Counted from the first letter of the stretch, positions 31,666 through 41,879 are shown. The stretch is DNA of 41,879 bases from an uncultured Acidimicrobiaceae bacterium (GCA_903845085.1 CAIMWD010000020.1:1-41879); one strand, 5' to 3'. Numbers and translations are program-made. The notes: generated by a model from the sequence alone, not told the origin.

Positions 31666-31690
31666 AAAAAAACGGCGCGCTAGTGCGCGC
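31666..31690 (-). terminator. Rho-independent terminator overlapping the end of regX3
   Basis: On the minus strand the stem GCGCGC / GCGCGC (31685-31690 and 31675-31680) with loop ACTA is followed by CG and seven T residues (31672-31666). The stem includes the last codons and the TAG stop (31680-31682) of regX3. This is a canonical intrinsic terminator placed inside the coding end, directly before the next ATG. Confidence 0.85.
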
Positions 31691-32450
31691 GAGGGGATTC
31701 GAACCGGTAACCCAGTCCGCGGATCGTCGTGATAAGTACGGGATTCGCCGGGTCACTCTCGACGCGAGAACGCAGGCGTTTGATATGTACATCAAGTGTC
31801 TTCGTATCACCGACGTAGTCGTAACCCCATACGCGCTCGATGAGGCGTTCACGAGTGACAACGCGACCGGCGTTTGAGATAAGGAGCAGAAGGAGCTCAA
31901 ACTCCTTCAGGGGAAGTCGGATCTCCACACCTCGCACGATGCACTCATGTCGCTCAGGATCCAGGCGGACGTCGCCGACGGTGATTGCCTCGCTCTCCGT
32001 ACCCTCGTTGAGCTCCTCCTCGATCTGGAGGGAGCGGAGGCGCTCCTCCTCCGCGAGCGAGCTACGCCGCAATACCGCACGGATCCTCGAGATCAATTCG
32101 CGGAGACGATAGGGCTTCGCAACGTAGTCATCAGCACCGATCTCTAGGCCCACAACCGTGTCGATCTCGGTTGACTTTGCGGTGACCATGATGATGGGTA
32201 CCGCAGATTTTGCGCGGATCGAGCGGCAGACATCAAGGCCAGTCAATTTGGGAAGCATGACGTCGAGAAGGACGATGTCAAAGTCACCATCGTGAAAGAG
32301 TTCCAGTGCCTCAGCCCCATCCCGAGCGATGGTGACCTTGAAATTCTCTCGCTCAAGTCCGACCGCTAGCGCATCGATGAAGGACTCTTCATCCTCGGCG
32401 ATGAGGACCCGGACGATCTCTTCTGTGGTCACCACTTCTAGGCTAGTCAC
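31680..32450 (-). CDS. regX3: Response regulator RegX3 (OmpR/PhoB family)
   Basis: A 256-residue regulator. The receiver domain has IAEDEES, the phospho-acceptor Asp63 in VLLDVMLP, the conserved Thr/Ser in MVTAKS and Lys in VAKPY. A winged-helix DNA-binding domain follows: LPLKEFELLLLLISNAGRVVTRERLIERVWGYDYVGDTKTLDVHIKRLRSRVE, ending GLGYRFE. An acidic linker of about 25 residues between the domains is longer than usual. It lies 20 bases after the histidine kinase gene. By position next to SenX3 and near pst genes it is the likely phosphate regulator. The start GTG 32450 or GTG 32432 is uncertain. Confidence 0.9.
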   Translation of the reverse strand: MTSLEVVTTEEIVRVLIAEDEESFIDALAVGLERENFKVTIARDGAEALELFHDGDFDIVLLDVMLPKLTGLDVCRSIRAKSAVPIIMVTAKSTEIDTVVGLEIGADDYVAKPYRLRELISRIRAVLRRSSLAEEERLRSLQIEEELNEGTESEAITVGDVRLDPERHECIVRGVEIRLPLKEFELLLLLISNAGRVVTRERLIERVWGYDYVGDTKTLDVHIKRLRSRVESDPANPVLITTIRGLGYRFESPRAH

Positions 32451-32470: not shown

Positions 32471-33730
32471 TCAGCCGACCTCGCCGCCCGCCTGCAGCGG
32501 GAGATGCAGTAGGAAGGTCGTTCCCTCACCCTCACGAGAATCGACTTCGACGTACCCTTGATGGTTCTGTGCGACATGGCGCACGATAGAGAGGCCAAGT
32601 CCTGTCCCGCCGGTGGCACGGCTTCGACCAGGATCGACGCGGTAGAAACGCTCGAAGATGCGCTCGAGATCGCGGGTCGGAATTCCGACGCCAGCGTCTT
32701 TTACGGAGATCACCACGTCATCTCCCACCACGGACGCACTGACGTGAACCTTCTTATCCGGATAGGAGAACTTCACCGCGTTATCTATCAGGTTAAATAC
32801 TGCGGAGGTCAGCTGCCGGCGATCACCGAGCACGGCAACTGGAGGGTTGGGTTCATTGAGTTCAATGCCGACGCTGCGCTGGTCTGCCGCCTCGCGAACT
32901 CGCTCGGTCGCCTCCGCAAGTACCAGGTTGATCAGGACCGGTTCGCGTGGTGGTGTCGATTCCGATTCGATCCGGGTCAGGTCGAGAAGATCATCGATGA
33001 CGCGCGAGATGCGAAATGCCTCCATGTGAATGCGTTCGGCAAGCCGACGCGAGACCGCCGGCTCTGTCTCGTCAAGCAGTGTCTCTGCAAGAAGCCCCAG
33101 TGCACCCATCGGTGTCTTCATCTCGTGACTGACATTGGCGATAAAGTCGCGCCGCACCTCTTCAAGGCGCCGACGCTCTGAGACGTCCTCAATCACCGCT
33201 GCCACGCCAAGATTTCGCTGGCCATTGTCGATGCTCTTGGTGCTCACGATGAGCGTGCGTCGAGGCGGGCCATAGAGCTCCAAGGTGCGCTCTCCCTCGC
33301 TGCCAAATGTGGTGGAGGCGATGAGCTCATTGACCGCTTGGATAGCGAGAGCATCGCCATGACGGTTGCTCATAAGTTCAATCGCCCGTGCATTTCGAAA
33401 GACATGGTCACCATGTTCATCACAGACAATTACGGCCTGCGGAAGGGTGTCGAGTGCCTTGCGTAGACGAATGGCATCAGAACTTGCATTGGTGACGGCC
33501 TCCGAGGCGCGCTCAGTGGTCTGCTCCAGATAGGTAAGCGCCTCCTCTATATCGTCCGGCTCCTCCGCGAGACTGTCGCCGCCGAGCCGCGAGCCGAGCG
33601 CAATGAGTCGTTGACGAAGGGCATCCGCTCCACGCCGCGAGCCGAAGACATAGGCACCGATCACCGCAAGAAGTGCAACTCCGATACAGATCAGGAGAAC
33701 AGAGAGCGGGATGTGCAGGTCGTGAGACAT
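32471..33730 (-). CDS. senX3: Sensor histidine kinase SenX3-like
   Basis: A 419-residue membrane kinase. It has one N-terminal membrane helix (PLSVLLICIGVALLAVIGAYVFG) after a very short outer stretch, a coiled-coil linker with LTYLEQTTERASEAV, and a PAS domain (about 92-185). The H-box is FIANVSHEMKTPMGALG (His202). The ATPase domain has N-box LIDNAVKFS, G1 KDAGVGI, F-box FERFYRV and G2 GTGLGLSIV. The missing large sensor loop is typical of SenX3/PhoR kinases, which sense phosphate through the Pst transporter and PhoU. The paired pst genes lie about 5 kb away on the other strand, and no phoU is seen in the window. Confidence 0.9.
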   Translation of the reverse strand: MSHDLHIPLSVLLICIGVALLAVIGAYVFGSRRGADALRQRLIALGSRLGGDSLAEEPDDIEEALTYLEQTTERASEAVTNASSDAIRLRKALDTLPQAVIVCDEHGDHVFRNARAIELMSNRHGDALAIQAVNELIASTTFGSEGERTLELYGPPRRTLIVSTKSIDNGQRNLGVAAVIEDVSERRRLEEVRRDFIANVSHEMKTPMGALGLLAETLLDETEPAVSRRLAERIHMEAFRISRVIDDLLDLTRIESESTPPREPVLINLVLAEATERVREAADQRSVGIELNEPNPPVAVLGDRRQLTSAVFNLIDNAVKFSYPDKKVHVSASVVGDDVVISVKDAGVGIPTRDLERIFERFYRVDPGRSRATGGTGLGLSIVRHVAQNHQGYVEVDSREGEGTTFLLHLPLQAGGEVG

Positions 33731-33772
33731 TCCATAAGCATGTCAGCTCACCGGAGGAGCTACCGAAATGGA

Positions 33773-33789
33773 GCGGGTTTTTGACCCGC
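33773..33789 (+). other. Hairpin between senX3 and the secretion-like cluster
   Basis: Stem gcgggt/acccgc (33773-33778 and 33784-33789) with a 5-base loop lies in the divergent region between senX3 and the small membrane protein gene. It stands about 5 bases before a -35-like hexamer, so it could be an operator rather than a terminator. Confidence 0.3.
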
Positions 33790-33793
33790 CCTC

Positions 33794-33822
33794 TTGTCGT
33801 GGTCGCTCTCTCTGCCTAGGAT
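33794..33822 (+). promoter_or_regulatory. Sigma-70-like promoter for the secretion-like cluster
   Basis: TTGTCG (33794-33799), a 17-bp spacer and TAGGAT (33817-33822) form a reasonable housekeeping promoter. Transcription would start near 33829 and give a leader of about 100 bases before the GTG at 33928. Confidence 0.5.
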
Positions 33823-33927
33823 CTCCACGCGCCTGCAAAGACTGCTGTAAGGCGCACCTATCTTGTCGACACTCTCGACCTCTTTCCGCTGCTGCCGTCC
33901 TCTTCGGCACCTTCACTGGAGGTAACT

Positions 33928-34242
33928 GTGTCTTCGATCTACGTGCTATTGCCGCCCTTTCAGTCTTCGGGGCCCGGGCTCAGTCCAAATGCTGCGGGGC
34001 TGCCAGGAAGCGCCACCTTGCAGTCGCTGATCAATGGACTTGCGTGGTGGGCGCTCCTCGCTGCACTCGCAGGTCTGGTGATTGGGGCAGCAACCTGGGC
34101 TCTTGGGTCTCACTCAAACAATTACCAACACGCGTCAACGGGACGTCGGGCAGTTCTGGTCTCTGGCGGCGCCGCGCTGCTTATCGGCGCAGCACCGACG
34201 ATCTTGAACTTCCTCTTCTCTACCGGCCAGTCCTTACATTGA
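33928..34242 (+). CDS. Small two-helix membrane protein, pilin/VirB2-like
   Basis: A 104-residue protein that starts at GTG 33928, with a very good GGAGGT 5 bases upstream. A proline/glycine-rich N-terminus is followed by two hydrophobic helices (ALLAALAGLVIGAATWALG and AVLVSGGAALLIGAAPTILNFLF) joined by a short polar loop (SHSNNYQHASTGRR). This size and topology are those of VirB2/TrbC-type pilins and of small membrane proteins encoded before TrbL-like genes in actinobacterial conjugation loci. Sequence identity to a named family is not certain. It is the first gene of a four-gene cluster with spacings of 8 bases or overlaps. Confidence 0.65.
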   Translation: MSSIYVLLPPFQSSGPGLSPNAAGLPGSATLQSLINGLAWWALLAALAGLVIGAATWALGSHSNNYQHASTGRRAVLVSGGAALLIGAAPTILNFLFSTGQSLH

Positions 34243-34250
34243 GCGCCCCG

Positions 34251-35435
34251 ATGGTCGTTGACCGCCTGCCATATGGCTTCGTCCTTCGCCCAACGACGGG
34301 GATCGGCTCCCTATTTGGATTGAGCGTTCATGGCCTAATGAACGGACTCTTTTCGATCTTTGGCGCGTGGACCGTCAATGGAACGAGGGCACTCCTCACT
34401 GCATTCTCGGTTGTTTTAAATGACACCTCCGGAGTGACATTTGGAACAGGATTTCACACGCTCTATCTCGTTGTGCGCGGTTTTGGCGCGCAGATCGGAG
34501 TGGCGCTTTTGCTAATTGTCACACTGCAAGCGCTCCTGCAGCAAGACCTCGGCCTTCTCACACGGGTGATCTTTGTTCGACTTCCCGCGGCGTTTTTGCT
34601 CTCGGGCGTCGCTGTAGAGGTGGTCGCCGGGCTGCTCGTCGTTAGCGATTCACTCTCTCGCTCGCTTCTGGCGACGGGTCGACAGAGCATCACCTCATTT
34701 CTCTCCGCCCTAGATGGAGTATTTACTGCAGGCTCCATTCTCTCGCCAGCAACAACCGGATTCGAGGGACTCCTTCTCGCTATCGCCCTTGGATTTGTAG
34801 TCTTTCTCTGCTGGCTCGAGCTGGTACTTCGTTCCGCAGCGATCACCATCGTGACGCTCTTCTTGCCGCTCGCATTTGCCGGCGTCATCTGGCCGGCAAC
34901 GCAACAGTGGCTGCGGCGCCTCGCAGAGACGTTGTTCGTATTGATCATCTCCAAAGTCATCATCGCAGGGATCTACGCCCTTGCGCTGGTGAGTTTTGGA
35001 CATGCGACAGGTGCGGCGATGTTGGTGAATGCGATTGCGATCTTCCTCCTCTGTGCGTGGGCTCCCTTCACGCTGTTGCATCTCGTGCCGATCGCGGAGG
35101 GCAGTGCGATGACTCATCTCTCTGGCCTCTCGCAGCGCGCAGCACAGGGAGCGCAGCGAACCGCCAAGAGGGTCGTTCCGATGGCAGCAGATGCGGTTCT
35201 ACCTGAGCCACAGCCAAGTGTTGATGAGGGTGACGATCTCGATTGGGCACCGGTTGATCCAAATGAGATCCTCACCGTTGATCCCGAAGATCGAGAGACA
35301 TTTGCCTTTTTGGAACCATTCGTTCGGGTTCGCGATGAGGAACAGCGCCCACGCGACGCCGATGGCTCACCGCTGCGATTACCGCCCTCGGTCGAGCGCT
35401 ATGGGCCCGGGGAGGAGAGCAACCATGACAGATAA
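34251..35435 (+). CDS. TrbL/VirB6-like multi-pass membrane protein
   Basis: A 394-residue protein with six to eight hydrophobic segments over residues 60-290 (for example IGVALLLIVTLQALL, AAFLLSGVAVEVVAGLLVV and AITIVTLFLPLAFAGVIW). The motif of a long loop followed by ATQQWLRRLAETLFVLIISKVIIAGIYALAL is what TrbL/VirB6 channel proteins and their actinobacterial counterparts show. The last 100 residues are soluble and acidic (VDEGDDLDWAPVDPNE), probably a cytoplasmic tail. An upstream-extended frame reading to 33768 is only the shadow of the previous gene. TTG 34239 overlaps the previous stop and is an alternative start. The end overlaps the next gene by 11 bases. Confidence 0.72.
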   Translation: MVVDRLPYGFVLRPTTGIGSLFGLSVHGLMNGLFSIFGAWTVNGTRALLTAFSVVLNDTSGVTFGTGFHTLYLVVRGFGAQIGVALLLIVTLQALLQQDLGLLTRVIFVRLPAAFLLSGVAVEVVAGLLVVSDSLSRSLLATGRQSITSFLSALDGVFTAGSILSPATTGFEGLLLAIALGFVVFLCWLELVLRSAAITIVTLFLPLAFAGVIWPATQQWLRRLAETLFVLIISKVIIAGIYALALVSFGHATGAAMLVNAIAIFLLCAWAPFTLLHLVPIAEGSAMTHLSGLSQRAAQGAQRTAKRVVPMAADAVLPEPQPSVDEGDDLDWAPVDPNEILTVDPEDRETFAFLEPFVRVRDEEQRPRDADGSPLRLPPSVERYGPGEESNHDR

Positions 35436-36864
35436 CCGGCGCCACTATTGGTTCGGACCGCGCGATGATCGGGCGCTTCTCGCCGCGCTCGGTCCGCTGC
35501 AACTGGGCGTGATTGGCGCTTCATTGGTGCTTGGCGTCATCGCGCTCCATCTCTTTGCACCACCGGTGGGACTCGAATCGGCTGCTGGTCTCGGCGTGAT
35601 GGGGATGACCCTCTCACTCGGGCGCATCGAAGGGAGGTCGTTGGTGGAGTGGGTCGTGGAGCTCTCGCGGTTCTCACATGCTGGTGTTGTCGGCGAGCGT
35701 CGGATGCTCTATCGGATCCGGACCGGCCTGCGCACCTCACCATCGCCGGCGAAATTCGCGTCGACCGAGTTCGTAGAGGTCACTCACGGCGGTCGATCAA
35801 TAGGAGTGATACTTGATCAACGGAAGCGGATGGTCTCCGGAGTCATCGACGTTGCCGGGACCTCGCTTTCACTCCTCGATAACCAAGAGCGCGAGCGTCT
35901 TTCGATGGCGTGGTCCTCAGTGCTCGCGGCGAGTGCGACGGATCGAAGGACGGTGCGTCTGAAATGGATACATGAGACGGCGCCCGATATCGCGATGAAA
36001 ACTCGCGCATCGGTCATCACCAATATGGCAGGGGTGGCGGACCTGCGCCGCCGCGAGGCGATGGATGCCTATCTCTCGCTGATCGACCAGGTGGGGGGTG
36101 AGCGTCTCGTTACCGAACAGCTCCTGGTCGTGAGTCTTCCCCTCCACTCGCGCTGGCAACCGAGCAACGCGCGCGTCGATCGCACTCCGGTGCCTGAGGG
36201 CCCGTTTCATGATCTTATTGTGCAGCTCGATCTCCTGATGCGGCGACTACATGATGCGGGAATTCCTCCCCGCGGGCCGCTCACACGGGCGCAACTTGAA
36301 GGCGTTACCCAACGACGCTTTCTGCTCACCGGTGTGGCGCAGCGTCGGACTGGGTTGTGGCCTGGCGCAATGGAGGAGCGATGGGAGAGCCTGCGCACCG
36401 ACGAACTCTGGCATGCGACCTTTTGGATTGCGGAGTGGCCTCGAGCCGTGGTCACCTCCGGATTTTTGTTACCACTGCTCAGCGAATCACGGGTCCGCCG
36501 AACGGTCGCGCTCGCCATGTCGCCACTCGCGGTAGATCGCGCGGTCCACCGTGCCGAGCAGCGTCGAACCTCGGCGACAGCGGATGCACAGCTACGCGGT
36601 CGCTATGGGTTTGCACTGAGCTCGCGGCGGCGAGCACAGCACGAAGCGATGACGCGACGAGAGGAGGAGCTCTCGGTCGGTCACCGAGGCTTTGAGTTCT
36701 CCGGATATATCACGGTGTCGGCTGGCTCCCCGCAGGAGCTGGCGGAGGCCTGCGACCAGATAGAACAGTGCGCCTCGGTATGTCACCTCGAGCTCCGGCG
36801 ACTCTATGGAGTCCAGCGTCGCGCCTTCGCCTTTGGGCTCTTAAATGCGCTGGGGTGTCAGTGA
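35425..36864 (+). CDS. SCO6880-family protein (PrgI-like N-terminus, VirB4 N-domain-like body)
   Basis: A 479-residue protein. Two hydrophobic helices near the N-terminus (PLQLGVIGASLVLGVIALHLFA and SAAGLGVMGMTLSLG) have the PrgI-like topology. The long soluble part has no Walker motif and resembles SCO6880-like proteins of actinobacterial conjugation loci, with VSGVIDVAGTSLSLLDNQERERLSMAWSSVLA near 165-195. I read it as the equivalent of the N-terminal, non-ATPase domain of VirB4/TraC, anchored to the membrane. GGAGG lies about 10 bases before ATG 35425. The stop overlaps the start of the ATPase gene as GTGA, consistent with a fixed complex. Confidence 0.7.
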   Translation: MTDNRRHYWFGPRDDRALLAALGPLQLGVIGASLVLGVIALHLFAPPVGLESAAGLGVMGMTLSLGRIEGRSLVEWVVELSRFSHAGVVGERRMLYRIRTGLRTSPSPAKFASTEFVEVTHGGRSIGVILDQRKRMVSGVIDVAGTSLSLLDNQERERLSMAWSSVLAASATDRRTVRLKWIHETAPDIAMKTRASVITNMAGVADLRRREAMDAYLSLIDQVGGERLVTEQLLVVSLPLHSRWQPSNARVDRTPVPEGPFHDLIVQLDLLMRRLHDAGIPPRGPLTRAQLEGVTQRRFLLTGVAQRRTGLWPGAMEERWESLRTDELWHATFWIAEWPRAVVTSGFLLPLLSESRVRRTVALAMSPLAVDRAVHRAEQRRTSATADAQLRGRYGFALSSRRRAQHEAMTRREEELSVGHRGFEFSGYITVSAGSPQELAEACDQIEQCASVCHLELRRLYGVQRRAFAFGLLNALGCQ

Positions 36865-38135
36865 AGATCCCCGTCCACGAGGCAACCTCACTCCAGCTCG
36901 GTGCGACTTTTCCCTTCGTGACTGGCCCAAAATTGCCGACGCGGCATCTGCTCATCGGCAGAGAGCGATCCGGCGACGATTTCTGCTACGACCCCTTTGC
37001 GCTTTATCAGAGTGGATATCTCACCAATCCAAATATGGTTGTGATGGGGCAGGTGGGGCGGGGAAAGAGTGCATTTGTAAAGAGCTTTCTCTTTCGCAAT
37101 TTTGCCTTGGGCCGACGCATCATTGTGATTGATCCCAAGGGAGAGTACAGCGCCTTGGCCGCACAGATCGGCGCTCGGCGCGTGGTGGTCGCTCCGAATT
37201 CCCCTACCCCAGTGAACCCACTCGGTGATGTCGGTTCGCATGCGACGGGCGAGGAACGAGCGCAGCTCGTTCATCGAAATCTGGCAGTTATCGCTGCACT
37301 TGCGCTTCGACGCGCACTTCGCCCGGAGGAAGAGGTTGCACTGGCCCTTGCACTCAACCGTCTCCTCCAAGGCCGAAGGATGGTTACCCTTCGCGAGGTC
37401 ATCGAGTCACTGCGCGTCCCCACTCTCGACGACGCGAATTCGCTGCATCTAGAACCCGCTGAACTTGCGGAGATCGGCGCTGCCACTGCATATTCTTTCC
37501 AGCGTCTCCTCGGTGGACAATTTGGCACCCTGTTTCACGGCGATGGCGCGCGCATCGCACCTTTTCCCTATCGCTCGCTCGTCTTGGATGTCTCCGCCTT
37601 TTATCGTTCGGATGCGCTCTCGCTTGTGCTTGTAGCGCTGCTCGGTTCCCTCGAGACGCAGCTTCGAGCTGAAGGGGGGATGACGTTATTAGTTGTGGAT
37701 GAGGCGTGGGCCGTTGTCGATGATCCGGTGACCTCCGGATTTCTCCGTGCATTTTTTAAGCTCGCCCGCAGCTTTGGGTTGGCCAATCTTCTGGTCGTCC
37801 ATCGACCCTCTGACCTTGGCGTGCGTCGTAGTGGACTCGGTGCCGCAGATGCGTCAATCGGCGAGGGCCTCGTAGCCGATTGCGAGTCCGCGGTGATCTA
37901 CGCACTGGCACGACCGGAGGCGCGACGAGCACAGCACCTCTTTGGGCTGTCATCGCGAGAGACAGAACTCCTTGCTGGATTAGGTCGCGGAGTTGCTCTG
38001 TGGCGTGTCGGTGAATCACGTTTTCTCGTTCGCCATGAACTCAGCGCCGTGGAGGCAGAGATCATCGACACCGACCAGGCGATGCGCCGTTCGCGCGATG
38101 AGGCGAACCGCGCAGGTCCACGAGAGACGCGATAG
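36861..38135 (+). CDS. VirB4/TraC-type secretion ATPase
   Basis: A 424-residue P-loop ATPase of the VirB4/HerA group. It shows FCYDPFALYQSGYLTNPNM, Walker A GQVGRGKS (63-70), FALGRRIIVIDPKGEY, Walker B LLVVDEAW (276-283), and late LFGLSSRETELLAGLGRGVALWRV, all of which match the ATPase half of VirB4-like proteins. The N-terminal domain of a full VirB4 (about 300 residues) is missing and appears to be supplied by the preceding protein. The start is GTG 36861. No relaxase, VirD4 coupling protein or VirB11 follows: the next gene is on the opposite strand, ending 10 bases away. It should power assembly or transport by the membrane proteins encoded upstream. Confidence 0.85.
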   Translation: MKIPVHEATSLQLGATFPFVTGPKLPTRHLLIGRERSGDDFCYDPFALYQSGYLTNPNMVVMGQVGRGKSAFVKSFLFRNFALGRRIIVIDPKGEYSALAAQIGARRVVVAPNSPTPVNPLGDVGSHATGEERAQLVHRNLAVIAALALRRALRPEEEVALALALNRLLQGRRMVTLREVIESLRVPTLDDANSLHLEPAELAEIGAATAYSFQRLLGGQFGTLFHGDGARIAPFPYRSLVLDVSAFYRSDALSLVLVALLGSLETQLRAEGGMTLLVVDEAWAVVDDPVTSGFLRAFFKLARSFGLANLLVVHRPSDLGVRRSGLGAADASIGEGLVADCESAVIYALARPEARRAQHLFGLSSRETELLAGLGRGVALWRVGESRFLVRHELSAVEAEIIDTDQAMRRSRDEANRAGPRETR

Positions 38136-38145
38136 GAGGAATTAC

Positions 38146-38589
38146 CTAATTGGTCGGTGCCGATCGCTCGTGCGCGATCTCTGAGGGGAGCCCGGCAGCA
38201 ACCGCTAGACCAACAACAACGGCGCCCGAGGTGGCTGCGAGGATGCCCCAGCGCCAAAACTTCGGCAGGTGAGAGAAGTCTCGGAGGGTAACGGAGGCAT
38301 CGACAAGGTCGGCGCCGGCGCCCAAAAGTAGGAGCTGACGAAGGCGTTTAGGGTCGCGCTCGAGCAGGGTACCGAGTCCTATCGTGATGTCGCGCCCGCC
38401 GAGTGCACGCGCCAAGAGACGCACTGACCCCCGTCTCGCCTCGTCGTCGCCGACCCAGGGTGCCACCGGAAGGCGAGGAGCGAGGATGGCGACGATTCCG
38501 AGTCCGGTACGCGCCACACCGAGGAGGCGTGCGATCGTGGATGCGCCAGCGCCAACACGTCCACAATTGCGTGGGGGATGAATGTTCAT
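38146..38589 (-). CDS. Small membrane protein, DUF4267-like
   Basis: A 147-residue protein with three or four hydrophobic segments (LLGVARTGLGIVAILAP, LLLLGAGADLVDASVTL, GILAATSGAVVVGLAVAAG). A conserved-looking RxLGxxxxxxG start and LLARALGGRDITIGLGTLLE in the middle recall small actinobacterial membrane proteins of the DUF4267 type. Function is unknown. The gene is convergent with the secretion ATPase gene and divergent from pstB. No Shine-Dalgarno precedes ATG 38589, but a perfect TAGAAT lies 7 bases upstream, so the message is probably leaderless. Confidence 0.65.
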   Translation of the reverse strand: MNIHPPRNCGRVGAGASTIARLLGVARTGLGIVAILAPRLPVAPWVGDDEARRGSVRLLARALGGRDITIGLGTLLERDPKRLRQLLLLGAGADLVDASVTLRDFSHLPKFWRWGILAATSGAVVVGLAVAAGLPSEIAHERSAPTN

Positions 38590-38649: not shown

Positions 38650-38695
38650 AAAGCCACTCCGACGTGCAAGTTAAAGCCACTCCGACGTGCAAGTT
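38650..38695. repeat. Two exact 23-bp tandem repeats upstream of the pst operon
   Basis: The unit aaagccactccgacgtgc plus aagtt occurs twice without mismatch (38650-38672 and 38673-38695), followed by the first four bases of a third copy. It lies between the divergent small membrane protein gene and pstB, directly before the PHO-box-like array. Its 23-bp period is close to two helical turns, so it could present the same face to a bound protein, or be a recent slippage duplication. Confidence 0.85.
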
Positions 38696-38701
38696 AAAGA
38701 A

Positions 38702-38775: not shown

Positions 38776-39624
38776 GTGACTACAACACCCCCGAAGGAGC
38801 AGACCACGGTGAGTGACCGCCTTGGTGAGCCCTCGAACACGCCGCTGAGCTCAACGGACAATGTAATGAGCGCACGCGATGTCTCGCTTGGATTCGGAGC
38901 GACCACCGTGATGCAGGACATCACCGTCAACTTCCCCCGCGGTTCGATCAATGCACTCGTGGGTCCCTCAGGTTCTGGAAAGACAACCTTTCTTCGATCG
39001 ATGAATCGCTTGAATGACAAGGTGCCAGGGTTTTGGCTCCGGGGCGAGGTGTGCCTCGATGGACACGACCTCAATGGTTCCGACGTCGACCCACTCATTT
39101 TGCGACGCAAGGTCGGTATGGTCTTCCAGCGTCCCAACCCCTTTCCCATGTCGATCATGGACAATGTGGTCGCGGGGGTTCGCGCACACAAGATGGCGAA
39201 GCGCTCCGAACTCCGTGATATCGCAGAGACTCGCCTCGCAGAGGTCGGGCTTTGGAGCCACATCTCCGATCGCCTCGATGATTCCCCCTTCCGGCTTTCG
39301 GGAGGTCAGCAACAGCTTCTTTGCCTCGCGCGCGCCCTTGCTGTGGAGCCCGAGGTCCTCCTCCTAGACGAGCCGACCTCCTCACTCGACCCGCGTTCGA
39401 CCGAGGCGGTTGAGGAGCTCGTTCGCCGGCTGACGCCTGAGCTCACAGTGATCATCGTGACGCACAACCTTGATCAGGCGCGCCGACTCTCGGACAACAC
39501 GATCTTCTTCTATGAGGGTCAACTCATGGAGACCGGTCCTACGCCACAGCTCTTCGATGCTCCCCAACGCCTTGAGACCCAGCGTTATCTCGGCGGGGCA
39601 GTCACCGTGAACGGAGACAACTAG
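38776..39624 (+). CDS. pstB: Phosphate ABC transporter ATP-binding protein PstB
   Basis: ATPase of the high-affinity phosphate importer, 282 residues. It shows Walker A ALVGPSGSGKTTFLRSMNRL (the NRL extension is typical of PstB), Q-loop VFQRPNPFPMSIMDNV, signature LSGGQQQLLCLARAL, Walker B VLLLDEPTSSLDP and the H-loop VTHNLDQARR. The first 30 residues are a variable leader; a later ATG (residue 31) at 38866 would begin just before the ABC core, but GTG 38776 has a well-spaced -10 box. In most bacteria pstB comes last after pstSCA. Here it is the first gene, followed by pstS and pstC. Confidence 0.93.
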   Translation: MTTTPPKEQTTVSDRLGEPSNTPLSSTDNVMSARDVSLGFGATTVMQDITVNFPRGSINALVGPSGSGKTTFLRSMNRLNDKVPGFWLRGEVCLDGHDLNGSDVDPLILRRKVGMVFQRPNPFPMSIMDNVVAGVRAHKMAKRSELRDIAETRLAEVGLWSHISDRLDDSPFRLSGGQQQLLCLARALAVEPEVLLLDEPTSSLDPRSTEAVEELVRRLTPELTVIIVTHNLDQARRLSDNTIFFYEGQLMETGPTPQLFDAPQRLETQRYLGGAVTVNGDN

Positions 39625-39749: not shown

Positions 39750-40931
39750 ATGAATGCACAATCACCCTTGGAGTCGTCGTTTATGGCACGACTTCGTCGT
39801 ATCAGCATGGCCACCGCCGCCGGCGCCCTTGCGATCTCTGCACTGTCGATTTCGGCAGCGACCGCACAGACAAAGACCGCTCACAAGACTCCAACGCTGA
39901 GCTCGCTTGAGAAGCAGCTCAAGGCATTGGAAGTTCCTGCGAGTTCTTCGACACCATTGTCCGAGGCTGGATCCTCCCTCTTCTACCCACTCGCAGCCGA
40001 ATGGGCACAGAAGTTCCCCTATGCGTCTACCATTCCTGTCACCGCCGCTGCTGGTGGCTCTGGTGCAGGAGTAAGTGGTGCGATCGCGGGCACGACCAAC
40101 ATCGGCGCCTCTGACCCATACCTGCCGGCCTCTGACACCACCGTGGTCAACATTCCAGAGGTTGTCTCTGCGCAGATGGTGAACTACAACATCCCGGGAC
40201 TTTCCACCAAGATTCACTTGAAGTTGAACGCCACGGTTTTGAACCAGATCTATGAGGGAACTATTACCAACTGGGATTCCCCTGCAATCACCGCCTTGAA
40301 CAAGGGTGTGAAGATCCCCTCAACTCCGATCGTGGTAATCCACCGCTCGGATTCAAGTGGTGACACCTTCCTCTTCTCTACCTACCTCAATGCGGGTTAC
40401 AAGCAGAGCTTCCTGCGTACTGCTACCTCGGGTGGACCTCAGAACCTCGTCAACTGGCCTTCAGTTCCAGGCGAGCTGGCGGAGAAGGGCAACACCGGAA
40501 TGTTGCAGGTCTGTGCAACCACCCCTGGTTGTGTCGCCTACATCGGTGTGAGCTACCTCAACTCGGCCGTCACCTCCTCGAATCTCGGTGAGGCACAGCT
40601 CCAGAATGCGAGCGGAAAGTACCTGCTCCCCGTCGCCTCGACGATCAACGCTGAGGTCGCCGGAATGAAGGCAATGCCCGCAAGTGGTGCCGTCAACTTG
40701 ATCTTCCTTCCGAAGGTCGCAAATGGCTACCCGATCGTGAACTTCGAGTACGCCATCGTGCAGCGCGCGCAGTCCTCGGCGACCGTTGCCAAGGCGATTC
40801 AGTCCTTCCTCGCTTGGGGCATGGACCCAACCGGTGGTGCAAGTGCCGCGAACCTCTCGTTCGTTCACTTCCAGCCGCTGCCGGCGAATGCGCTTGCCGT
40901 AGCCGTCAACCTCCTCAAGTCGATTAGCTAA
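39750..40931 (+). CDS. pstS: Phosphate-binding protein PstS
   Basis: Extracytoplasmic phosphate-binding component, 393 residues. The N-terminus has basic residues and a hydrophobic helix (MATAAGALAISALSISAA) with a likely signal peptidase I site near ATA-Q (residues 37-40). There is no lipobox cysteine, unlike most PstS of Gram-positive bacteria. Phosphate-contact segments are visible: EAGSSLFYPLA, GGSGAGVSGAIAGTTNIGASD, IVVIHRSDSSGDTFLFSTYL. Two cysteines in VCATTPGCVAYIG may form a disulphide. AAGGAG is 11 bases before ATG 39750, a rather long spacing. A short imperfect palindrome (gcccatctgggc, 39706-39717) lies upstream. The gene starts 125 bases after pstB and may have its own promoter. 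Confidence 0.93.
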   Translation: MNAQSPLESSFMARLRRISMATAAGALAISALSISAATAQTKTAHKTPTLSSLEKQLKALEVPASSSTPLSEAGSSLFYPLAAEWAQKFPYASTIPVTAAAGGSGAGVSGAIAGTTNIGASDPYLPASDTTVVNIPEVVSAQMVNYNIPGLSTKIHLKLNATVLNQIYEGTITNWDSPAITALNKGVKIPSTPIVVIHRSDSSGDTFLFSTYLNAGYKQSFLRTATSGGPQNLVNWPSVPGELAEKGNTGMLQVCATTPGCVAYIGVSYLNSAVTSSNLGEAQLQNASGKYLLPVASTINAEVAGMKAMPASGAVNLIFLPKVANGYPIVNFEYAIVQRAQSSATVAKAIQSFLAWGMDPTGGASAANLSFVHFQPLPANALAVAVNLLKSIS

Positions 40932-41128: not shown

Positions 41129-41879
41129 ATGAGCATGCATAACGTCGAGGTAACCACCTCGATCTCCTCTCAGAAGACTGGGCTGCGAAAGCTCGCCCAG
41201 CGCGCGATTGTCTATCTGTCGACCGCGACCGCGGTGGTCCCCTTCCTTGGATTGCTCGCGATGGTGGTCATCCTCCTCGTCGAGGCGATCCCTGCCGTGC
41301 GCTACAACGGCTTCTCGTTCTTCACCTCCTCACTATGGTCACCGGGCAACTTCTATGGCACCCCGATACATGATCACGGCGTAGCCCATCTCCCCGGGGC
41401 TCACTTTGGCGCCTGGACCCTTATCGCAGGGACCCTCGAGTCCTCGTTGATTGCGATCATCGTTGGTCTTCCCATCGCGATCGGTGCCGCGGTTCTGCTC
41501 GTCGAGAAGCTCCACCACCGCCTCGCTGCAGGTATAGGTCTCTGTCTGGAGATTCTCGCGGGAGTTCCCAGCGCCGTGATCGGACTCTGGGGCATTATCA
41601 GTTTTGGCCCCTTTCTTGCAAAGCACGTCTATCCGATCCTTGAGAAGATGCCGAATGTTCCCGTGTTGAATTTTTTTCACGGATCCACGGGAACGGTGAG
41701 TGCGACCGGTCAGGGTCTTTTGACCGGCGGACTTGTATTGGCGGCGATGATCATTCCTTTGATCGCCTCGACCGCGCGTGACCTACTTCGCCAGGTTCCC
41801 ACCCTGACTAAAGAGGGCGCAGAGGCATTGGGGCTCACCTCAACGGAGTCCTTTATGACCGTGCAGGCTCGGTGGGCTC
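41129..41879 (+). CDS. pstC: Phosphate ABC transporter permease PstC (partial, cut by window end)
   Basis: The first 250 residues of an inner-membrane permease. ATG 41129 has AGGGA upstream. The N-terminus has a membrane helix (VVPFLGLLAMVVILLVEAIPAV), then FFTSSLWSPGNFYG, the FGAWTLIAGTLESSLIAIIVGLPIAIGAAVLL region and LEILAGVPSAVIGLWGII, all typical of PstC. The EGAEALGLTSTES segment near the end is the EAA loop that contacts the PstB ATPase. The reading frame is open to the last base, and pstA is expected downstream. Confidence 0.93.
   Translation, partial: MSMHNVEVTTSISSQKTGLRKLAQRAIVYLSTATAVVPFLGLLAMVVILLVEAIPAVRYNGFSFFTSSLWSPGNFYGTPIHDHGVAHLPGAHFGAWTLIAGTLESSLIAIIVGLPIAIGAAVLLVEKLHHRLAAGIGLCLEILAGVPSAVIGLWGIISFGPFLAKHVYPILEKMPNVPVLNFFHGSTGTVSATGQGLLTGGLVLAAMIIPLIASTARDLLRQVPTLTKEGAEALGLTSTESFMTVQARWA

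Follow-up and report, generated by a model that had tools for sequence, protein, structure and literature searches.

A vertically inherited type IV secretion-like operon of Acidimicrobiaceae as a candidate half of a domesticated conjugation system

The 41,879-bp stretch of DNA analysed here (the window) is the whole of contig C20 of a 137-contig, 1.75-Mb genome of an uncultured Acidimicrobiaceae bacterium, which has an estimated completeness of 96.5 % and whose nearest named relatives are Acidimicrobiaceae metagenome-assembled genomes. Between the phosphate sensor genes senX3-regX3 and the phosphate transporter genes pstB-pstS-pstC, the window contains an operon of four open reading frames (33928-38135), all on the plus strand, with adjacent pairs overlapping by 4, 11 and 4 bases. 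An earlier interpretation made without database searches (the sequence-only reading) had placed here, within the same flanks, a pilin-like, a TrbL/VirB6-like, an SCO6880-like and a VirB4-type gene, forming the core of a machine related to type IV secretion systems (T4SSs). The four genes and both flanks were indeed found at these positions, and the gene assignments are supported by profile searches and Foldseek comparisons. The operon is referred to below as locus A.

The first gene of locus A (33928..34242, +) encodes a DUF6112 family protein of 104 aa (PF19607, E=1e-12), a two-helix membrane protein resembling VirB2/TrbC pilins. Its orthologues, aligned as a set of 22 sequences, match TrbC/VirB2 models (best 4e-6) and T4SS_pilin models. 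These matches are at odds with a 2025 review, according to which VirB2 is absent from Gram-positive T4SSs except those of Patescibacteria (PMC12857230). The second gene (about 34239-35435, +, with a start at TTG 34239 or ATG 34251) encodes a TrbL/VirB6-like polytopic channel protein. The protein itself has no Pfam match; 9/21 of its orthologues match PF19597 (TrbL_4), and the match to the SCO6881 family is weak. The top Foldseek match of its AlphaFold model (pLDDT 77) is TrwI/VirB6 of plasmid R388, with a probability of 1.0 and an E value of only 4e-3.

The third gene (35425..36864, +) encodes an SCO6880 family protein of 479 aa (NF042935, E=2e-55, above the cut-off), which combines an N-terminal transmembrane pair, VirB3/PrgI-like to judge by its position, with a VirB4 N-terminal domain. 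All 14 PDB matches of its AlphaFold model (pLDDT 74) with E<=0.001 are R388 structures containing TrwK/VirB4, and the match to TrwK/VirB4 itself reaches 7e-10. The fourth gene (36861..38135, +) encodes the ATPase half of VirB4, a protein of 424 aa with intact Walker A and B motifs (PF01935, PF19044 and AAA_10, all above the cut-off) that is 37-50 % identical to its syntenic orthologues. Its start was set at 36861 since relatives begin at MKIPxHEA, and a GTG at 36768 lies too early. Because the predicted fold of the SCO6880 protein is like the N-terminal part of VirB4, the models indicate that the two adjacent genes are not unrelated and that VirB4 is split into an N-terminal domain and an ATPase half. 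Walker A is kept in 42/42 sequences; VirB4 and VirD4b (described below) retain Walker A in all cases and Walker B in nearly all. The features of a conjugation-type T4SS found in the window are therefore a VirB4 with Walker motifs and a VirB6/TrbL channel, while VirD4 lies outside it.

The missing donor components are encoded on contig C15 (7,190 bp) of the same genome, in the order HU (-), VirD4b (+), MobF (-), PafBC (-) and TypA (+), which is referred to as locus B. No other VirD4 (TraG-D_C) and no other TrwC-domain relaxase were detected in the genome; their two genes are adjacent and convergent on this contig. VirD4b matches PF02534 and PF12696. The relaxase scores above the cut-off of NF041492 and matches solved TrwC/TraI structures at an E value of 1e-55; the catalytic tyrosine Y14 and the HUH histidines H185, H196 and H198 are invariant in 24/24 sequences. 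A C-terminal helicase was not found in the relaxase of this genome or in those of two relatives, which consist of the TrwC domain only; relative G055 retains AAA_30. The relaxase on C15 has only the first of the tandem N-terminal tyrosines (Y14, with Leu at position 15) and an insertion of 30-odd residues near its N-terminus. Relaxase C-termini vary greatly, and many end in a tail resembling G-(L/I)-(G/S)-R, which the relaxase on C15 does not have. Such a tail might possibly be a translocation signal; the pattern proved too loose to claim it as an export signal, and part of the likeness between relaxase and VirD4b tails may stem from the tail-to-tail overlap of the two genes.

Both loci recur in the same arrangement across relatives, as determined by tblastn in genomes most of which are drafts. 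At locus A, regX3-senX3 on one strand is followed on the other by DUF6112-trbL-SCO6880-virB4-virD4a and then, in many members, by pst. In 35/39 genomes DUF6112 lies no more than 3 kb from SenX3, and in 38/48 the same holds for virD4a and virB4. VirD4a is the fifth gene of the operon in most relatives, situated between virB4 and a DUF4267-like gene, and is absent only from the window's genus (G000, G001 and G002). At locus B the order is HU, virD4b, mobF, pafBC and often typA, with mobF adjoining pafBC in 30/36 genomes; contig ends account for several of the exceptions. In G002 the contig ends at locus B, and the relaxase falls outside the check. Of the family's 35 genomes, 31 yielded VirB4, about 33 a VirD4b-type protein and 34 a TrwC-domain protein, several of the misses being fragmented genomes. 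Family f23 shows both loci in the same arrangement, and some 400 kb separate locus A from VirD4b in G072, a closed genome of f27. Of 198 genomes sampled across the class, 17 encode VirD4b; they belong to families f1, f16, f23, f27 and f29.

Two side observations concern individual members of the window's family. G014, which is 94 % complete, encodes VirD4b and MobF and yields no VirB4 or SenX3 match at the thresholds used, owing either to an assembly gap or to a true loss of locus A. G005, G022, G023 and G030 carry several additional TrwC relaxases of great length, the longest having about 1,300 aa, as well as a second copy of a T4SS; these look like ordinary mobile elements of a related type residing beside the resident system.

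The phylogenies of both loci follow those of their neighbours. The VirB4+SCO6880+TrbL tree shares 21/30 splits with that of SenX3+RegX3, which served as the reference in place of a full species tree (mirror r=0.90, with strong support for three conflicts), and the VirD4b+MobF tree shares 19/26 splits with that of PafBC (r=0.85, no strongly supported conflict). Agreement between the trees of locus A and locus B amounts to r=0.90, and mirror correlations range overall from 0.85 to 0.93. In close pairs, the ratio of nonsynonymous to synonymous substitution rates (dN/dS) is 0.02-0.33 for every component; for PafBC, G005/G023 was excluded as a bad fragment pair. Synteny, congruent trees, dN/dS and invariant residues together show that both loci have been inherited vertically at fixed sites, under purifying selection and with their catalytic residues kept, and on these grounds a remnant of an integrative conjugative element (ICE) was rejected. 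In contrast to an ICE or plasmid, the genes are not contiguous but occupy two loci between housekeeping genes, no integrase or replication gene was found among the window frames or on contig C15, and the distribution is neither patchy nor incongruent with the phylogeny.

The sequence-only reading had regarded the operon as a resident machine with no mobile genes adjacent to it, and this view is borne out across the family, where the four genes are syntenic and near-universal. The absence of relaxase and VirD4 that it noted is correct for the window itself; the genome as a whole, however, encodes both on contig C15, and most relatives have them too. It had also taken relaxase, virD4 and integrase genes nearby in the full genome, or a patchy distribution, as the mark of a conjugative element remnant; the first two genes do occur elsewhere in the genome, whereas neither a nearby integrase nor a patchy distribution was observed.

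A regulatory link to DNA damage is suggested by a motif shared between the relaxase gene and pafBC. In 14 genomes, GGTAGG precedes the relaxase start by 38-40 bases, and the leaderless promoter-like pattern GGTAGG-N18-23-TANNNT-start has 16 matches in 2.1 Mb, counting those with a frame of at least 80 aa: 10 before mobF, 5 before pafBC and 1 elsewhere. When 355 kb of relative G018 were sampled for other regulon members, no match was obtained, and GGTAGG has no fixed position before the locus A operon. In mycobacteria PafBC is a DNA-damage activator (PMC5656591, PMC6789036, PMC11804915); the motif is unlike the mycobacterial consensus quoted in PMC5656591. The relaxase and pafBC are likely to be co-regulated with the DNA-damage response, and this only regulatory hint points to DNA damage rather than to phosphate.

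Genomes carrying the system also stand apart in lacking the transformation protein ComEC. Its model (PF03772) matches 10/14 control genomes but none of the family's 35. In the class sample, within the same order, ComEC was found in 0/17 VirD4b carriers versus 33/34 non-carriers (Fisher p=1.2e-12). The carrier clade is without ComEC, a loss kept in all its sampled descendants, and its sister families have the protein; ComEC is also absent from other genomes of the class that do not encode the machine.

Taken together, these data identify locus A almost certainly as part of a resident, conjugation-derived machine, the substrate of which is probably DNA. On balance, we favour by a slight degree the interpretation that the window genes constitute half of a domesticated conjugation system, by which host DNA is exported to other cells in connection with DNA damage. 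In this system, locus A would provide the membrane translocator, composed of DUF6112 as a pilin-like, VirB2-like subunit, TrbL (VirB6), SCO6880, VirB4 and, in most relatives, VirD4a, while locus B would contribute the VirD4b coupling ATPase and the MobF/TrwC relaxase beside pafBC. MobF would nick chromosomal DNA at a putative origin of transfer (oriT) and remain bound to the strand; VirD4b, joined by VirD4a where it is kept, would feed the relaxase-DNA complex into the VirB4/SCO6880-TrbL channel. Host DNA would thereby be exported, most likely directly into a neighbouring cell, with expression of the relaxase probably tied to PafBC. Such transfer would be the principal means by which the group exchanges DNA, taking the place of transformation dependent on ComEC. 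Transfer between cells is somewhat better favoured than plain release. It may further be proposed, more tentatively and with less than even confidence, that the clade has swapped natural transformation for a vertically inherited, DNA-damage-responsive, relaxase-driven chromosomal conjugation, a bacterial counterpart of the archaeal Ced system in which core genes encode the whole donor apparatus.

Several observations weigh against this interpretation. No oriT was found, and an 8-bp inverted repeat before the relaxase gene of this genome (shuffle p about 0.03), considered as a conserved oriT hairpin, was rejected as it does not recur in relatives. A VirB8-like or cell-wall hydrolase (VirB1) gene is not present in locus A or B of this genome, the search having covered these two loci and not the whole genome; other host proteins may substitute for these components, or they may not be needed, by analogy with mycoplasma ICEs, which lack both but reside in wall-less cells (PMC12857230). 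Families f27 and f29 encode locus A and VirD4b, and MobF was not detected beside VirD4b. In the SenX3+RegX3 tree, the tested carriers (f1, f23, f27 and f29) form one clade (87.5/94), so that the ComEC contrast counts as about one evolutionary transition. Finally, loss of the homologous Streptomyces cmd operon left plasmid transfer unchanged and gave a developmental phenotype (PMC2782261).

The position of locus A had led to the suggestion of phosphate-linked expression, a link for which position is the evidence. On one side of the operon lie regX3 (31680..32450, -), a response regulator gene identified as a conserved flank by tblastn synteny, and the sensor kinase gene senX3 (32471..33730, -), whose product is 59-82 % identical to SenX3 beside the operon in relatives; the divergent intergenic region between senX3 and DUF6112 (33731..33927) presumably holds the operon promoter, with no motif identified in its sequence. 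On the other side, a DUF4267-like membrane protein gene (38146..38589, -; PF14087, below the cut-off) directly follows virB4 in the window's genus and precedes pstB (38776..39624, +) and pstS (39750..40931, +), the transporter ATPase and phosphate-binding protein genes recognized by synteny, and a pstC/A permease gene (41129..41878, +) cut at the contig end. Just upstream of pstB (38650-38699) is a perfect 23-bp tandem repeat of 2.2 copies, AAAGCCACTCCGACGTGCAAGTT, which could be a duplicated regulator site. The operon adjoins senX3-regX3 throughout the clade and pst in many members. In families without the machine (f3, f7 and f28), pst mostly adjoins senX3-regX3 with no such operon between them, so that the operon is located within a phosphate neighbourhood that is otherwise conserved.

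The homology to cmd makes a non-transfer role the main rival explanation, in which a resident T4SS-like machine serves development, the cell surface or protein export and the relaxase processes DNA within the cell, for repair or segregation. Streptomyces CmdB, CmdC and CmdD resemble SCO6878, SCO6880 and SCO6881, are chromosomally encoded and are required for sporulation and segregation to proceed normally, not for plasmid transfer (PMC2782261); cmd-like loci of Streptomyces-like genomes also lie ~13 kb from pst, and the T4SS of Patescibacteria is likewise resident and mostly without a relaxase (PMC12102498). In the present system, however, the translocator has been kept together with a MobF relaxase whose active site is invariant and with that relaxase's own VirD4, which is not the rule in either case; we consider this explanation rather unlikely. 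A role in anti-phage defence was rejected, PADLOC having returned only weak generic ATPase matches (mad8, HerA).

DNA might also be released into the medium, as by the gonococcal genetic island (GGI), to serve for instance as public DNA, as a matrix for biofilms or as a store of phosphate. Relaxase, VirD4 and VirB4 are sufficient in type for secretion of single-stranded DNA, and phosphate control would agree with the place of locus A between senX3-regX3 and pst. The sole motif found nevertheless links to pafBC, phosphate regulation has no support beyond position, and a gain of the GGI kind requires recipient competence, yet ComEC is missing from the whole family; this role is judged improbable. 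Slightly more improbable still is a role in DNA import, the function described for archaeal Ced and that of Helicobacter pylori ComB. The VirB2/VirB6/VirB4 set does equal CedA1/CedA/CedB (PMC9905601), and the absence of ComEC would call for another uptake route, but a conserved relaxase and two VirD4 proteins are donor-side parts and Ced has no known relaxase (PMC9905601). A decaying or scattered ICE could be read from the spread of the genes over two loci, the degenerate helicase part of the relaxase, the loss of VirD4a in the window's genus and the co-occurrence of true mobile copies with long TrwC relaxases in several relatives. It is hardly credible given the same two sites over many genera and several families, together with the tree congruence, selection and catalytic conservation described above, and the nearest plasmid VirB4 is only 34 % identical.

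Conjugation machinery is regarded as a property of plasmids and integrative elements, and archaea are the only group for which it has been claimed to be domesticated for the exchange of cellular DNA (PMC9905601). No description of such a system in Acidimicrobiia was found in the open-access literature, to which the search was confined; Acidimicrobidae have been reported to be without actinomycete integrative conjugative elements (AICEs) (PMC3218068). A bacterial clade in which relaxase, coupling protein and channel are core genes and ComEC is lacking would allow direct tests of whether bacteria can possess a sexual system of their own, how such a system is controlled and what takes over from transformation once it is lost.

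The HUH relaxase domain, catalytic tyrosine and adjacent VirD4 are shared with the MobF/TrwC relaxases of plasmids such as R388 and F, from which the present system differs in having no recognisable helicase domain in most members, in its separation from the translocator genes and in not being located on an element. Chromosomal DNA as the presumed cargo invites comparison with the GGI, mycobacterial distributive transfer, mycoplasma chromosomal transfer and Thermus transjugation; however, the GGI and the ICEs of mycoplasmas are elements, type VII secretion takes part in mycobacterial transfer and Thermus donation needs recipient competence (PMC12857230, PMC3706393, PMC6819513, PMC5365140). The Patescibacteria T4SS resembles the present one as a resident monoderm system with VirB2-like pilins and a VirD4 usually encoded far from virB4, but it possesses VirB1 and VirB8 and is tied to epibiotic life (PMC12102498).

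The Streptomyces operon cmdABCDEF (SCO4126-4131) and SCO6878-6881 encode homologous VirB4, SCO6880 and SCO6881/TrbL proteins, and cmd, too, is resident; unlike locus A, it has no described MobF partner (PMC2782261). In Streptomyces-like genomes, some 13 kb separate pstSCAB from a cmd-type VirB4/SCO6880/TrbL operon, behind which lies a VirD4-like match. This is perhaps an old neighbourhood common across the phylum, and the distance is only suggestive of one ancestral locus for cmd and locus A. The working assignment of SCO6880 as half of a split VirB4 and of DUF6112 as a VirB2-like subunit may offer a lead for the unexplained cmd operon. The closest parallel is provided by the Ced and Ted systems of Crenarchaeota, which combine chromosome-fixed conjugation machinery with a minimal VirB2-/VirB6-/VirB4-like set and of which Ced is induced by DNA damage (PMC9905601, PMC11868833). 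The set described here is likewise chromosomal and vertically inherited, but whereas the archaeal systems have no known relaxase and are described as importers, in these bacteria relaxase and VirD4 are conserved.

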